A stretch of 64,000 nt of DNA from Methanocaldococcus infernus ME (GTDB lineage Archaea; AGJL01; Methanococci; Methanococcales; Methanocaldococcaceae): positions 62,001-126,000 of the forward strand of contig NC_014122.1 of the NCBI RefSeq assembly GCF_000092305.1, given 5' to 3'. Shown piece after piece: positions 53,664-59,100 of the stretch. The first letter of the stretch is position 1. Every line of letters begins with the position of its first letter. Both the position numbers and the translations under genes were made by a program. The notes below the pieces were generated by a model that saw only the letters and a list, made by a program, of their open reading frames with translations, was not told the DNA's origin and did no database searches.

Positions 53664-54563
53664 ATGATCTTAGTCACAGGAGGAGCAGGATTTATAGGTA
53701 GTCATGTGGTTGATAAGTTAATTGACCAAGGTTATGAAGTTTTGGTTATAGATAATTTAACAACAGGAAATTTAAAAAATTTAAACCCTAAGGCTAAGTT
53801 CTTAAAGCATGATATAAGAGAGGCTTTAGATATTAAGGATGTTGAAGCCATTATTCACCATGCAGCTCAAATTAATGTTAGGCACTCAGTAGAGAAGCCA
53901 AGATATGATGCAGATGTTAATGTCTTAGGAACTATAAATTTATTAGAGCTGGCAAGAAAAGCTGATGCTAAATTTATTTATGCCTCTTCCATGGCTGTTT
54001 ATGGAAATCCTAAGTATTTGCCAGTTGATGAAAACCATGAGATTGATCCAATCTCTCCCTATGGGTTGAGTAAGTACTGTGGAGAACTCTATATAAAGCT
54101 TTATAATAACCTCTATGGCTTAGAATACTCTATATTAAGATATTCTAATGTTTATGGAGAAAGGCAGAATCCAAAAGGAGAGGCTGGAGTTATCTCCATT
54201 TTTATAAGTAAAATTTTGAGTGGAGAAAGGCCAGTGATCTTTGGAAATGGAGAACAGACAAGGGACTTTGTCTATGTTGGAGATGTGGCTAAAGCCAATG
54301 TTATGGCTCTAAATTGGAAAAATGAAGTTGTAAATATAGGGACAGGGACAGAGATAACCATAAATAAGCTTTATAAAATTATTAAGGAGAAGATGAACTA
54401 TAATGAGGAGCCAATCTATGATAAGCCAAGGAAGGGGGATGTTTATAGAGTTTATTTAGACATAACAAGGGCTAAAAAGCTTGGCTGGGAGCCAGAGGTT
54501 TCCCTAAATGAAGGGCTGGATAGAGTGATAAGTTGGATGAGAAAATGTGGACAAGGGAATTAA
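53664..54563 (+). CDS. NAD-dependent sugar epimerase, UDP-glucose 4-epimerase type
   Basis: The 299-aa extended short-chain dehydrogenase has the nucleotide loop VTGGAGFIGSHVVDKL, YASSMAVYGNP, the catalytic SPYGLSKYCGE (Y-x3-K), RYSNVYGERQNP, and RDFVYVGDVAKA. The length and motifs fit archaeal GalE-like UDP-glucose or UDP-GlcNAc 4-epimerases; the sugar is not certain. AGGTGAACTC precedes the ATG. It diverges from the tRNA-Arg gene and overlaps dacZ. Confidence 0.88.
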   Translation: MILVTGGAGFIGSHVVDKLIDQGYEVLVIDNLTTGNLKNLNPKAKFLKHDIREALDIKDVEAIIHHAAQINVRHSVEKPRYDADVNVLGTINLLELARKADAKFIYASSMAVYGNPKYLPVDENHEIDPISPYGLSKYCGELYIKLYNNLYGLEYSILRYSNVYGERQNPKGEAGVISIFISKILSGERPVIFGNGEQTRDFVYVGDVAKANVMALNWKNEVVNIGTGTEITINKLYKIIKEKMNYNEEPIYDKPRKGDVYRVYLDITRAKKLGWEPEVSLNEGLDRVISWMRKCGQGN

Positions 54564-55468
54564 TAAAGCATGGGCTAAGCTTGGCCAATGATATAGATGC
54601 CAATGCCTTCTTTCTATTTACAGAGACAGGAAAATCTTTTGACATCTTATTAGATATTCTTAAGGAAAAGGGAGAGGTAAAAAAGAGAAAATTTTCATTG
54701 TTGGATAAAATTTTGAAGAAAGAGTTAAAGATTATTGTTTTTACACCAAATGAAACCACATATAAGAGAATCTCAAAAGAGAAAGATGAGAATATTGATA
54801 TTGTATTTTTGGGATATAGAGAGGAGGAGAGGTATCAGATAGTTTTGAGTGGCTTAGTTCACTCTCTAAACTTAAGGAAGATAGAAAAAAGTGACAAGGT
54901 TGTTAGTGTAGTGGGCCCAAAGAATGGAAAATTAGATACTATCATGATCTTAAAGGTTGATGAGCATATAAAAATTACAAGAGTTTATGAACTATTAAAT
55001 AGCTTAGATCAGAAAATGAGAAGAACAGTTAAAGAAGTGTTAAAATTAGCTATGGAAATTGGGAGAGAGGGAAAAGAAGGGAAAAGAGTAGGGACACTCT
55101 TTGTTATAGGGGATACTTTAAATGTTATAAGTATGTCAAGGCCCTTAATCTTAAACCCCTTTGCAGGGCATGAGGCTAAGATCTTTGATCCAGATGTTAA
55201 GGGAACAATAAAGGAATTAAGTAGTATAGATGGAGCCTTTATAATAACTGAAGAGGGAAAAGTAGTTTCAGCTGGAAGATATCTTGATGTTAAAGGAGAT
55301 GTTAATCTAAAAAAAGGACTTGGAGCAAGACATGTGGCTGCAGCAGGTATAACAAAAAATACAAATGCTATAGCTATAACAGTTTCTGAAAGTGGAGGAA
55401 TAGTTAGAATCTTTAAAGATGGAGAGATGGTAGCTGAACTTGACCCAAATAAAGTATTATTATTTTAA
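54545..55468 (+). CDS. dacZ: Diadenylate cyclase (c-di-AMP synthase) DacZ
   Basis: The 307-aa protein has a variable N-terminal domain to about residue 170 and a C-terminal DisA_N cyclase domain: IDGAFIITEEGKVVSAGRYLDV with the catalytic DGA and GLGARHVAAAGITKNTNAIAI with the RH-x motif (both outlines), then VSESGGIVRIFKDG. Archaeal DacZ makes c-di-AMP, which controls osmotic and potassium balance. ATG 54545 overlaps the epimerase 3' end; an in-frame TTG at 54533 is a less likely start. Confidence 0.85.
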   Translation: MWTRELIKHGLSLANDIDANAFFLFTETGKSFDILLDILKEKGEVKKRKFSLLDKILKKELKIIVFTPNETTYKRISKEKDENIDIVFLGYREEERYQIVLSGLVHSLNLRKIEKSDKVVSVVGPKNGKLDTIMILKVDEHIKITRVYELLNSLDQKMRRTVKEVLKLAMEIGREGKEGKRVGTLFVIGDTLNVISMSRPLILNPFAGHEAKIFDPDVKGTIKELSSIDGAFIITEEGKVVSAGRYLDVKGDVNLKKGLGARHVAAAGITKNTNAIAITVSESGGIVRIFKDGEMVAELDPNKVLLF

Positions 55469-55482
55469 AACCAAAAAAAGAG

Positions 55483-55544
55483 AAGGCGTCAGTTCGCCCA
55501 TCAATCATCATAGCTCAGCAGCTACTCCGATCATCATCCGCCTT
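55483..55544 (-). ncRNA. C/D box guide sRNA, in the 3' flank of rps6e
   Basis: On the minus strand the order is complete: terminal stem AAGGCG/CGCCTT, box C ATGATGA (55531-55537), guide TCGGAGTAGCTG, box D' CTGA (55515-55518), three-base spacer, box C' ATGATGA (55505-55511), guide TTGATGGGCGAA, box D CTGA (55489-55492). Both guides are 12 nt, the normal archaeal size. It starts six bases after the rps6e stop and is followed by a T run. The second guide matches the UUCGCC region of 23S rRNA. Confidence 0.9.
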
Positions 55545-55550
55545 TTTTGT

Positions 55551-55949
55551 TTATTCTTTATTTTCCTCTTTATTTTCTTCTAAACCTAATAGTTCAGGAA
55601 TGGACTTCTCTCCATACTCAACAACTTTAACATTTATCTGAACTATATCAGGAGCTATTGTATTTCCTCTAACAGTCTTTCTTCTTCTCTCTCCCTTTCT
55701 CTTTGGGTGGAATCCTGGTGGTCCACTTAAAAGAACTTTAACCTTTCTACTTCCATGAATGTCTGGCCTCATTGGGAAGCCACTATCATCAGTTCCTCCT
55801 CTTATCTCTAACTTATAGCCCTCTAAGCCTATAATTTTTCCATCAAATACATCTCCTATTTTCATTCCAACCAATGGAGTGTTGTCAGCTTCAATCTGAT
55901 AACATCTTCCAGTCTTTGGGTCAGCTACAACAAATTTAGCCATTGGCAT
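55551..55949 (-). CDS. rps6e: Small ribosomal subunit protein eS6 (S6e)
   Basis: The 132-aa protein starts at ATG 55949 with AGGGTG six bases upstream. [67 protein letters not shown] and [14 protein letters not shown], given as outlines, are typical of archaeal S6e. The C-terminus is acidic. A structured RNA lies between its promoter and its start, and a C/D sRNA follows its stop. Confidence 0.95.
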
Positions 55950-55985
55950 ATTTAACACCCTAAAATAGCTTTTTTCTCTTTTTTA

Positions 55986-56104
55986 TCTCCACTTGGCCTT
56001 AAGATGGCTTCATCCCTAAAAACCCCTTCAGCCGTGGGAAGCCAAAGGGGTGGTTGGCCATCTTCATCAGCCACTTCCCAACCTCTCATAGAGAGGTTAG
56101 GAGA
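55986..56104 (-). ncRNA. Structured, pseudoknotted RNA in the rps6e leader (candidate regulatory RNA or small ncRNA)
   Basis: This 119-nt segment is far more GC-rich than any other gap. Stems (plus-strand positions): TCTCC/GGAGA closes it (55986-55990 with 56100-56104); AAGATGGC/GCCATCTT (56001-56008 with 56057-56064); ACCCCTT/AAGGGGT (56022-56028 with 56045-56051); ACCTCTC-ATA-GAGAGGT hairpin (56081-56097). Seven loop bases TGGGAAG (56035-56041) pair with CTTCCCA (56074-56080), a pseudoknot. A minus-strand TATA, TTTATATATTAC (56131-56142), predicts a start near 56110, exactly at its 5' edge. Confidence 0.72.
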
Positions 56105-56130
56105 ATAAACCTTGAAACTTTTAATGATTA

Positions 56131-56142
56131 AGTAATATATAA
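56131..56142 (-). promoter_or_regulatory. TATA-box promoter of the structured RNA and rps6e
   Basis: Read on the minus strand, AAATTTATATATTAC is a strong archaeal TATA region. It lies about 28 bases upstream of the 5' edge of the folded element and just past the cobN stop (56150). No comparable TATA lies between the element and rps6e, so the RNA is probably the mRNA leader. Confidence 0.6.
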
Positions 56143-56149
56143 ATTTTAT

Positions 56150-59100
56150 CTAAACCTTATTTTTCCAGGAGAGATCTATAAATATTTGCCCACCTTGATA
56201 ATCTCCTAAGCCACTATTTTCTTCTAAGTCTCCTTCAATTTCTAAATATATCTTCTTCAGCTCTTCTATCTTATCTCTCTCAGCTCTCCATAATCCTCTC
56301 TGATAAGCTTCTAATAACCTTCTACTAATCTCCTCTAAGGCATAAATATTATTCCTCCTAAAAAATTCTCTATTCTCTTCATTTTTTATATATGTGTTAA
56401 AGATCTCATCATATATCCAGTTTTCAACTTCTTTAGTTGTAGAACTCCAGCCATAGATTCTACCAACTCTCTTGGCTATATCTCCAGCCCCTTTATATCC
56501 ATGCTTTTTCATCCCCTCAATCCACTTAGGATTTAAAAGTTTTGATAATGTAACCCTTTCAAGCTCTTCCTTTAAGGTTCTAACTTCAACCCCTTTCCTT
56601 GTATCTCCATAGTAAGCCTTTATCTTCTTTTTACTTAAAACTCTTGCAGCATTTGTTAAACCTCCATGTGTTCCAAAATAGCAACAGCAACCAAGAAGAT
56701 CATATTCATCAGTCACAACCTTGTTAAAGGTTAGATCAACTCTCTTTAGTAGTTCTTCAAATACTTGCTTAGCTTTAACTCCATTCACTCCTTTACCATA
56801 AGCATATGAATTCCAATATAAGAAAATATCTTTTAAGTCCTCTTCACTTTCCCAAGCACTTGAGTATATAGCATATTTAACTCCATTTCCATAAGTTCCT
56901 GGCTTTGAGCTGAATATTCTATATGTAGCTTCTCTAAATGAAACCCCTTTCTTCAAGTTTTCTAAAGTATGTTTTTTAACAAAGTTCATATTCAATGGCT
57001 CATCTAACTTAGCCACTCTCATAACAGCTTCATCAACCAGCTCTATACAATTTGGAAAATAGTCCCTTAAGATGCCACTAACTCTTATTGTAACATCTAT
57101 CCTTGGTCTTCCTAATTCTTCTAATGGAATAACCTCTATGCCAACAACTCTTCCACCTCTCCAGAGAGGTTTAACCCCCAGTAAGTATAAAATTTGAGCC
57201 AACCCTTCCCCATCTGACCACATGATATCAGAAGCCATCCAATAAATGGCTATATTCTCAGGAAATCTCCCATGTTCCTCTAAATATTTGTCTATAAGTT
57301 TCTCAGCTAACAGTATGCCAACCCTATAGGCTGACTTTGTTGGGACTTTATAAGGATCTAATGTATAAAAATTTCTTCCAGTTGGTAAGATGTCATAGTT
57401 CCCCCTTGTTATTAACCCAGAAGGACCTGGCTCTATGTAATTAAGATCCATAGCTCTTAAAAGAGAGCCAATTTCATCACTCTTCTCTATCCTCTCATTT
57501 ATCTCAATTATTTCATCCATTAACTTTTTATCATCTATCTTTTCCCCTGATAAAACTCTCTTTACTTTCTCTTTAACATTTCCATACTCAAACTCTAAAA
57601 TTGAGCTAATAAACTCTACTCTCCTCTCCCCTTCAGGTTTTTCTCCAAAAACATGCATTCCATCATTCATTTTAGTGTTTTTTATTAACTCTATTGTATC
57701 TCTCAACTCTTTAAATATCTCTTTAAACTCTTTATGAATCTCCCTAATATCTCTTAGCTTTTCTTTAATGTTTCCCAAATTACTCTTTTTTATTTCCTCA
57801 ACTATTAGATGCTCTAACTGATGTTTTCTTATCTCACTATCACCCTTTAAATACTCATCTATCAAATTACTTAAATTCTCTAACCTCTCATCAAAAGAAG
57901 AGGTTAGAACTGTCTGCATGTGGTCAATAATTAGAGCATAACTTCTTCTCTTGGCTATTGAACCCTCTGGAGGATTGTCAGAGTTATATATGTAAAGATG
58001 TGGAACCTCCCCAATACAGATATCAGGATAGCATTCTTTAGAGAGGCAAACATTCTTTCCTGGCAAGAATTCAAGGGTTCCATGAGTTCCTACATGTACA
58101 ATAAGGTCAGCTATATCATTGAAGTATTTATAGGTTGCTAAGTACTGATGTGTTGGAGGACAGTCAGGATCATGTAAAATTTTACAAACAGAGCCATCAC
58201 ATCTTGCTCCTACACAGCCTCTTTTTGGTTGGACACAAATATAGATATTCCCAAATTTTAAGCCAGTTATAACTATCTCCTCTACCTCTCCCCAAACCCT
58301 TTTTATCTCTTCTCTAACCTTCTCTGGAAGTGAATTTAAATAATTTAAATATTCTTCCTTACTCATTATATAGAGATAGCCTCCCTTCTTAATGGTTTCA
58401 GAAACTGTTGTCCATCTAAATTCTGGGAAGGCCTTCTTTTCTAAGATTAGTTTAGCTAATTCATTTCCATCCTTAGGAATATTTTCTACAAAGTAGCCCT
58501 CTTCCTTTAATTTTCTCATAATTCTTACTAAGCTCTCAAAAGTGTCAAGGTGGGCAGCACTACCAATAGTAGCTTCAAGAGAGGAACAAGCTGAGCTATG
58601 TAAGACAAAAACAACTTTTCTATCTTTTTTTGGCTTTTTCTTTAAATTTATCCATCTTCTTACTCTATTTACTAATTTCTCAATCCTATCATCAATAGCC
58701 TTTTTCTTCTCTACACCATCTTCTTTTTCAGTAACTCCTATAATAATTGGCTCAATAACCCCCTCAAATTCAGGCAATGTTATGGAAAACCAAATCTCAT
58801 GCTTTAAACCATCTCTCTTCCACTCTTCATAACTTTGATAATAACTAACAATTGGATGAAAGACTGGAACATTTAACTTTTTTAAAATTTCTACACCCTG
58901 AACCTTTTTTAAACCATGGTTTTCAACAGAGGTTTCCAATGGAAAAGAGAGCATGTTAATTAGAGCATCTATTAACCTCTCCTCTCCCCTAAAAAAGTAT
59001 TTTAGTATACAGTCACCTCCACTAATGGCCTTTAACTCTTCATTTCTTGCTCCATAGGTAAAGACAGGAATGACATTAAAGTATCTCTCAAGACTTTCTA

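Follow-up and report, generated by a model that had tools for sequence, protein, structure and literature searches.

The structured segment described here lies on the minus strand of a 64,000-nucleotide stretch of the Methanocaldococcus infernus ME genome (the window, whose numbering is used throughout), and the genome that holds it is a single contig of 1,328,194 bases. It fills the gap between a CobN-like gene, whose stop is near 56150, and rps6e (55551-55949, ATG at 55949-55947), the gene encoding ribosomal protein S6e. All features are on this strand unless stated otherwise. A Shine-Dalgarno-like AGGGUG (55956-55961) precedes rps6e, and a CUAUUUU tract (55962-55968) adjoins it, between the RNA and the ribosome-binding site. 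On the upstream side, the strong minus-strand TATA that had been noted near the 5' edge of the RNA is indeed a perfect box, TTTATATA (56143-56136), about 25 nt from that edge, and transcription is predicted to start at about 56110-56113, at the 5' edge itself. TATA/BRE-like boxes were seen by eye at a similar distance 5' of the RNA in most relatives. Directly 3' of rps6e there is also a C/D box RNA of the sR2 family (Rfam RF01139, 55.1 bits; 55487-55541), which probably sits in the rps6e 3' UTR. The gene after rps6e in the window is convergent (54533-55468, plus strand) and is not eIF2-gamma; at the relative locus L005, eIF2-gamma was read by eye as coming after rps6e.

The GC content is 53-58% at 55990-56079 and 22-38% in the surroundings. 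The 157-nt stretch 55986-56142 folded at -57.9 kcal/mol, while its shuffled versions averaged -42.3 (z -3.72, with 0 of 200 shuffles as good), and the fold of the opposite strand was weaker by 11 kcal/mol. A covariance model was built from 14 aligned rps6e-upstream sequences with M. infernus left out. Searched against the window, it matched the locus at 55979-56116 with 49.3 bits (E 2.6e-15), while the next match reached 13 bits. This recovery is an independent confirmation of the locus, and together with the folding energy it bears out the sequence-only reading, which had placed a GC-rich structured RNA in the S6e leader on the minus strand.

A BLASTn search for relatives with the whole segment returned its own locus and two matches of 26-30 nt in the AT-rich 5' flank, which were judged to be chance, and a plasmid search with the segment gave no match. 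Upstream of rps6e, other Methanocaldococcus genomes have an RNA with the same layout. By covariance model, all 14 genomes of the genus Methanocaldococcus had one copy each, as did the two genomes of genus g3 in the sister family; the copy was always 5' of rps6e, and the RNA was absent from 20 other Methanococcales. Across up to 394 archaeal genomes, models without and with the M. infernus copy found no other match that stood out: with some 300 and 390 genomes searched, the best of the rest had per-genome values of 1.2e-4 and 3.2e-4, and the former was rejected on inspection. Among the weak matches, those in G069, G115 and G031 were rejected on their alignments (the first two also on their open reading frames), that in G004:C31 as coding-looking sequence, and those in G133 and G334 as expected by chance at that number of genomes. 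Direct searches of the rps6e flanks of many other archaea gave no further copies.

The rps6e gene was found by protein search in 39 of 41 genomes, and it lies directly 3' of the RNA in 16 of 16. The genes upstream of the RNA are of five kinds, identified by eye as a zinc-ribbon membrane protein, a CobN-like protein, a divergent CBS-domain gene, another open reading frame and a glutamine-synthetase-like gene; the CobN-like gene takes this place only in M. infernus. At L018, L019 and L048, the S6e proteins of the two g3 genomes are 67-69% identical to M. infernus S6e, as compared with 55-63% in other Methanococcaceae. The presence of the RNA follows the same split, either through shared ancestry with loss or through transfer of rps6e together with the RNA. 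Two Methanococcaceae genomes without the RNA (L023 and L025) have a different strong hairpin, GGTGAT..GGAAAAACC..GGTTTTTCTACTGTT.TCACC, within about 100 nt 5' of rps6e, which is possibly an unrelated S6e leader.

The covariation set consisted of 16 sequences aligned to the covariance model. In this alignment 92% of the cells were paired and 27 of 37 pairs showed compensatory changes, against 12.6 in shuffles (0 of 500 shuffles equalled it), although these counts lean towards the model structure since the alignment was fitted to it. The shuffle control, a slide control and the held-out search were the safeguards against that lean; when the partner was shifted by one column, the signal was lost. 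Unguided RNAalifold gave the same helices except for the short P1, and it added a fourth pair to the outer kink-turn stem (UA, GC, CG and AU types). The check by covarying pairs that the sequence-only reading had called for was thus passed across the 16 sequences. Stem-loop P2 (CUCCUAACCUCUC UAU GAGAGGUUGGGAAG, 56074-56103), seen in the fold and listed as helix 2 in the covariation table, had 98.9% of its cells paired and five pairs with compensatory change, and stem-loop P4 (ACCCCUUUGGCU UCCCAC GGCUGAAGGGGU, 56022-56051), also seen in the fold, had compensatory change in 10 of 10 pairs. Of the earlier set of stems with a closing helix, P2, P3 and P4 proved to have covarying homologues in 15 other genomes. 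The long closing helix is specific to M. infernus: this alternative helix P1', read from the sequence, pairs UUUAUUCUCC (56100-56109) with GGAGAUAAA (55982-55990), and most relatives have no more than a short UCCU/AGGG counterpart. What is conserved as a closing element is instead the outer (C) stem of a kink-turn, 4 bp long.

The most conserved part of the RNA was absent from that earlier list of stems. The central stem P3 is flanked by two kink-turns in opposite orientation, for which it is the common NC stem (the stem with the G.A pairs). The segment at 56054-56072 contains the long strand of kink-turn A (GGCU-GAU-GA-A), the P3 5' strand GAUGGC (56062-56057) and the short strand of kink-turn B (C-AA). 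The segment at 55995-56016 contains the long strand of kink-turn B (GG-GAU-GA-A), the P3 3' strand GCCAUC (56008-56003), the short strand of kink-turn A ((UU)AA) and the outer stem GGCC. Each P3 strand carries an invariant (N)AUGA motif, mostly GAUGA, that faces GA or AA, and the common sequence reads 5' GUC-GAU-GA-CCCAGUG-GA-GUU ... AAC-GAU-GA-AGCUGGG-GA-GGC 3'. At both sites L3 is U, 1b is G, 2b is A and 1n is A in 16 of 16 sequences, and 2n is G in 15 of 16 at one site and 14 of 16 at the other, being otherwise A. These motif nucleotides are kept while the stems covary: in the kink-turn stems alone 11 of 13 pairs show compensatory change, and column 49-125 of C-stem A is a UA, GC, CG or AU pair in different genomes. 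Both sites therefore show the 3-nt bulge, tandem G.A/A.G pairs, U at L3 and covarying helices of a kink-turn motif.

The two sites differ at the 3b:3n position. At kink-turn B, 3n is G in 11 of 16 sequences, and at kink-turn A 3b:3n is mostly Watson-Crick C:G or A:U, or U:U. According to published folding rules (PMC6298567), kink-turn B should fold in ions and kink-turn A should need a protein. In M. infernus both kink-turns have A.A at 2b.2n, with AA short strands, and kink-turn A carries an extra U. A natural type of k-turn with A at 2n has had its structure solved in complex with L7Ae (PMC3985660). The presence of two kink-turns points to a protein of the L7Ae family as the candidate binder.

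The sequence-only reading had also noted a perfect 7-bp complementarity between TGGGAAG and CTTCCCA. This is present, with strand 1 (UGGGAAG, 56080-56074) overlapping the base of P2 and strand 2 (CUUCCCA, 56041-56035) in the apical loop of P4. In every genome the P4 loop has a C-rich run that is able to pair with GGG of the P2 3' strand; UUGGG/CCCAA pairing is possible in 11 genomes and seven pairs in M. infernus. The loop complementarity exceeded all 2000 loop shuffles (10 distinct cases), and all 3000 when only six divergent sequences were used. By this comparison a pseudoknot is supported. In the minimum-energy fold, the same TGGGAAG strand forms the lower part of P2, and its GGG also pairs with the invariant UCCU at the P2 base; the pseudoknot and the full P2 are therefore mutually exclusive, which suggests a switch. 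The alternative state leaves UCCU free to pair with an AGGG that follows the RNA on its 3' side, in a helix that in M. infernus is lengthened to 8-9 pairs with a bulge. The lower P2 pairs are invariant, so that covariation there cannot tell P2 from the pseudoknot. The energies at 37 C (-58.6 with full P2; -47.8 for the alternative, to which the pseudoknot duplex would add about -9.5, the loop penalty not being counted) favour full P2, and the switched state would thus need help, for example from a protein.

The distance from the end of the RNA to the ATG is 83-151 nt in most genomes and 389 nt in one. In three genomes it is only 11, 29 and 29 nt (L011, L017 and M. infernus itself), too short for a second promoter or for separate transcription of rps6e. 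The ribosome-binding site lies some 70 nt or more from the RNA in most genomes; it was not found inside or next to the k-turn stem, the spacer being 11-389 nt and no longer than 29 nt in only those three genomes. CURUUUU occurs in the spacers of 13 of the 16 loci (L004-L019 and L048), with variants in two and none in L011, and we suggest that it might serve as a 3'-end signal. The 389-nt spacer (L048, 1635-2020, genome G016) contains a further hairpin (CACTGCAACCTTCGGTTGCAG and neighbours), and the spacer of the sister genome G024 is 83 nt.

We consider it rather probable, with some reserve, that the RNA is a cis-acting, L7Ae-type k-turn leader of the S6e mRNA. As in ribosomal-protein leaders, it keeps to the same ribosomal protein gene in spite of a changed neighbourhood, in 16 of 16 genomes and five upstream contexts; this constancy, with the short spacers in three genomes, argues for a leader acting in cis. 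It is reported that L7Ae binds k-turns in the leaders of its own and the nop5 mRNA and lowers translation (PMC5539422, PMC6298567). Transcription would begin at the 5' edge of the RNA and continue through it into rps6e. The transcript would fold into a compact core of the P2 hairpin, then P3 with an opposed kink-turn at each end, then P4, and the two kinks would bend P4 backwards and bring its C-rich loop within reach of GGG in the 3' strand of P2. A k-turn-binding protein of the L7Ae family, most likely L7Ae, would bind one or both kink-turns and drive the RNA between a state with P2 fully paired and a state with P2 opened and the pseudoknot and closing helix formed. The switch may tune S6e output to the supply of ribosomes and RNPs.

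Several observations count against the L7Ae reading. The deviations of the M. infernus kink-turns from the consensus weigh against it, and S6e is absent from the main text of the paper on L7Ae targets in S. acidocaldarius. The known L7Ae leader occludes the ribosome-binding site, whereas the S6e RNA in most genomes does not; the known leader is unfolded without protein, whereas the stems of the S6e RNA are strong on their own. A bolder proposal, which we offer only tentatively, is that the RNA represents a new class of archaeal RNA switch, in which a protein-controlled double-kink-turn hinge would trade the base of P2 for the pseudoknot and set S6e expression, and the conserved CURUUUU tract, ahead of the ribosome-binding site, would act as a premature 3'-end under regulation.

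Ribosomal proteins commonly regulate their own synthesis through mRNA leaders, and S6e itself may bind the RNA and repress its own synthesis, with the kink-turns being only architectural. The strict association of the RNA with rps6e and with no other gene agrees with this, and the G at 3n of kink-turn B in 11 of 16 sequences would, by the published rule, favour ion-driven folding. Kink-turns orient strands for pseudoknots without protein in the SAM-I and lysine riboswitches (PMC3124441). When the RNA was compared with M. infernus 16S rRNA at the sequence level, the members spanning the family showed no resemblance beyond chance (one member reached 5 of 100 shuffles and the others gave nothing), which counts against the autogenous reading. 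The literature searched has no report of S6e autoregulation in archaea, and to our knowledge S6e is not a k-turn binder. We therefore regard autogenous control by S6e as doubtful, if worth keeping in view.

A separate question is that of priority. Klein, Misulovin and Eddy (2002) reportedly screened M. jannaschii for GC-rich islands of just this sort, and the RNA could be an M. jannaschii RNA already described, among those of their GC-rich candidates for which no Rfam family was made. The genome presumed to be that of M. jannaschii (G008) carries the RNA. Rfam 15 (4227 families, the four Hgc families included) gave no match at the gathering score, either in the window or at the 15 homologous loci, and the relaxed-threshold matches to PyrR (16.9 bits, E 6.3) and SCARNA7 were chance. 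The suggested identity with an Hgc RNA (HgcC, HgcE, HgcF or HgcG) is thereby set aside, and the RNA is not a listed family, as its novelty required. The literature searched neither mentions nor describes it. We think an earlier listing rather unlikely; it would be compatible with the other explanations, changing priority and not the proposed structure or function.

It is less probable still that the RNA is an independent or processed noncoding RNP, resembling box C/D RNAs in its GAUGA - GA - GAUGA - GA order, which has no more than a transcript or a neighbourhood in common with rps6e. It has a promoter position of its own, its box-like motifs stand in a C-D'-C'-D order like that of a box C/D sRNA, one genome has a 389-nt spacer, and some k-turn leader RNAs of P. 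abyssi are released by processing (PMC3124441). On the other hand, the segments between the boxes pair with each other in P3, are 7-9 nt long and covary freely, and thus cannot be target guides; the RNA also stays with rps6e through all five kinds of upstream neighbour, and the three shortest spacers give no space for rps6e to be transcribed on its own.

A metabolite or ion riboswitch aptamer is very improbable: several riboswitches typically have kink-turns and a pseudoknot round a compact core (PMC4316175) and the mutually exclusive pairings suggest switching, but the sole regulated gene encodes a ribosomal protein with no metabolic link, a dense conserved single-stranded core of the aptamer kind is missing, and the kink-turn, P2 and pseudoknot positions account for the conserved bases. 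A riboswitch tied to the CobN-like gene was dismissed, since M. infernus alone has this gene upstream; a hammerhead ribozyme (CUGAUGA core) was rejected for the missing GAAA and an unfit stem order, an H/ACA RNA for a kink-turn below the internal loop with no 3' ANA seen, and a box C/D guide since the would-be guides are base-paired to one another, so that no single-stranded guides of about 10-12 nt lie between the boxes.

Few archaeal cis-regulatory RNAs are known, and the balance of ribosomal proteins beyond the L1 and L7Ae cases is largely open. The present RNA family has no Rfam entry, shows strong covariation and is tied to one ribosomal protein gene in two hyperthermophilic genera, and its pair of opposed kink-turns on a common stem is unusual. 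Possible feedback linking k-turn proteins to the small subunit could be tested directly on it, and it would make a compact model for studying pseudoknot switching driven by kink-turns at high temperature.

Several known systems come close to the S6e RNA. Like the archaeal l7ae and nop5 leaders bound by L7Ae, the S6e RNA has a k-turn with a GAU bulge and tandem G.A pairs in the 5' leader of a gene for a translation or RNP protein. It differs from them in its two kink-turns on one stem, its 130-nt pseudoknotted and intrinsically stable fold, its gene, rps6e, and a ribosome-binding site outside the k-turn stem, so that it may work like these leaders and is not classed as one of them; the double shared-stem kink-turn with a pseudoknot is what would be new among known archaeal k-turn mRNA leaders. 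The Hgc RNAs of AT-rich hyperthermophiles are likewise GC-rich structured islands in an AT-rich archaeon, with no family match to the S6e RNA. The SAM-I and lysine riboswitches also use a kink-turn to bring a loop to a pseudoknot or loop-loop contact, but the S6e RNA matches them in neither sequence nor topology (no Rfam match) and adjoins no metabolic gene. A box C/D sRNA likewise has GAUGA twice and GA twice, ordered C-D'-C'-D; in the S6e RNA the segments between them are paired and about 7 nt long with no guide function, and P2 and P4 are large extra stems. The double kink-turn module reported for euryarchaeal RNase P RNA also has two nearby kink-turns that are presumed L7Ae sites. RNase P RNA is a different RNA encoded elsewhere in the M. 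infernus genome, and a simple, crude motif scan of five RNase P RNAs found no two GAUGA k-turns on one stem, the arrangement that distinguishes the S6e RNA.
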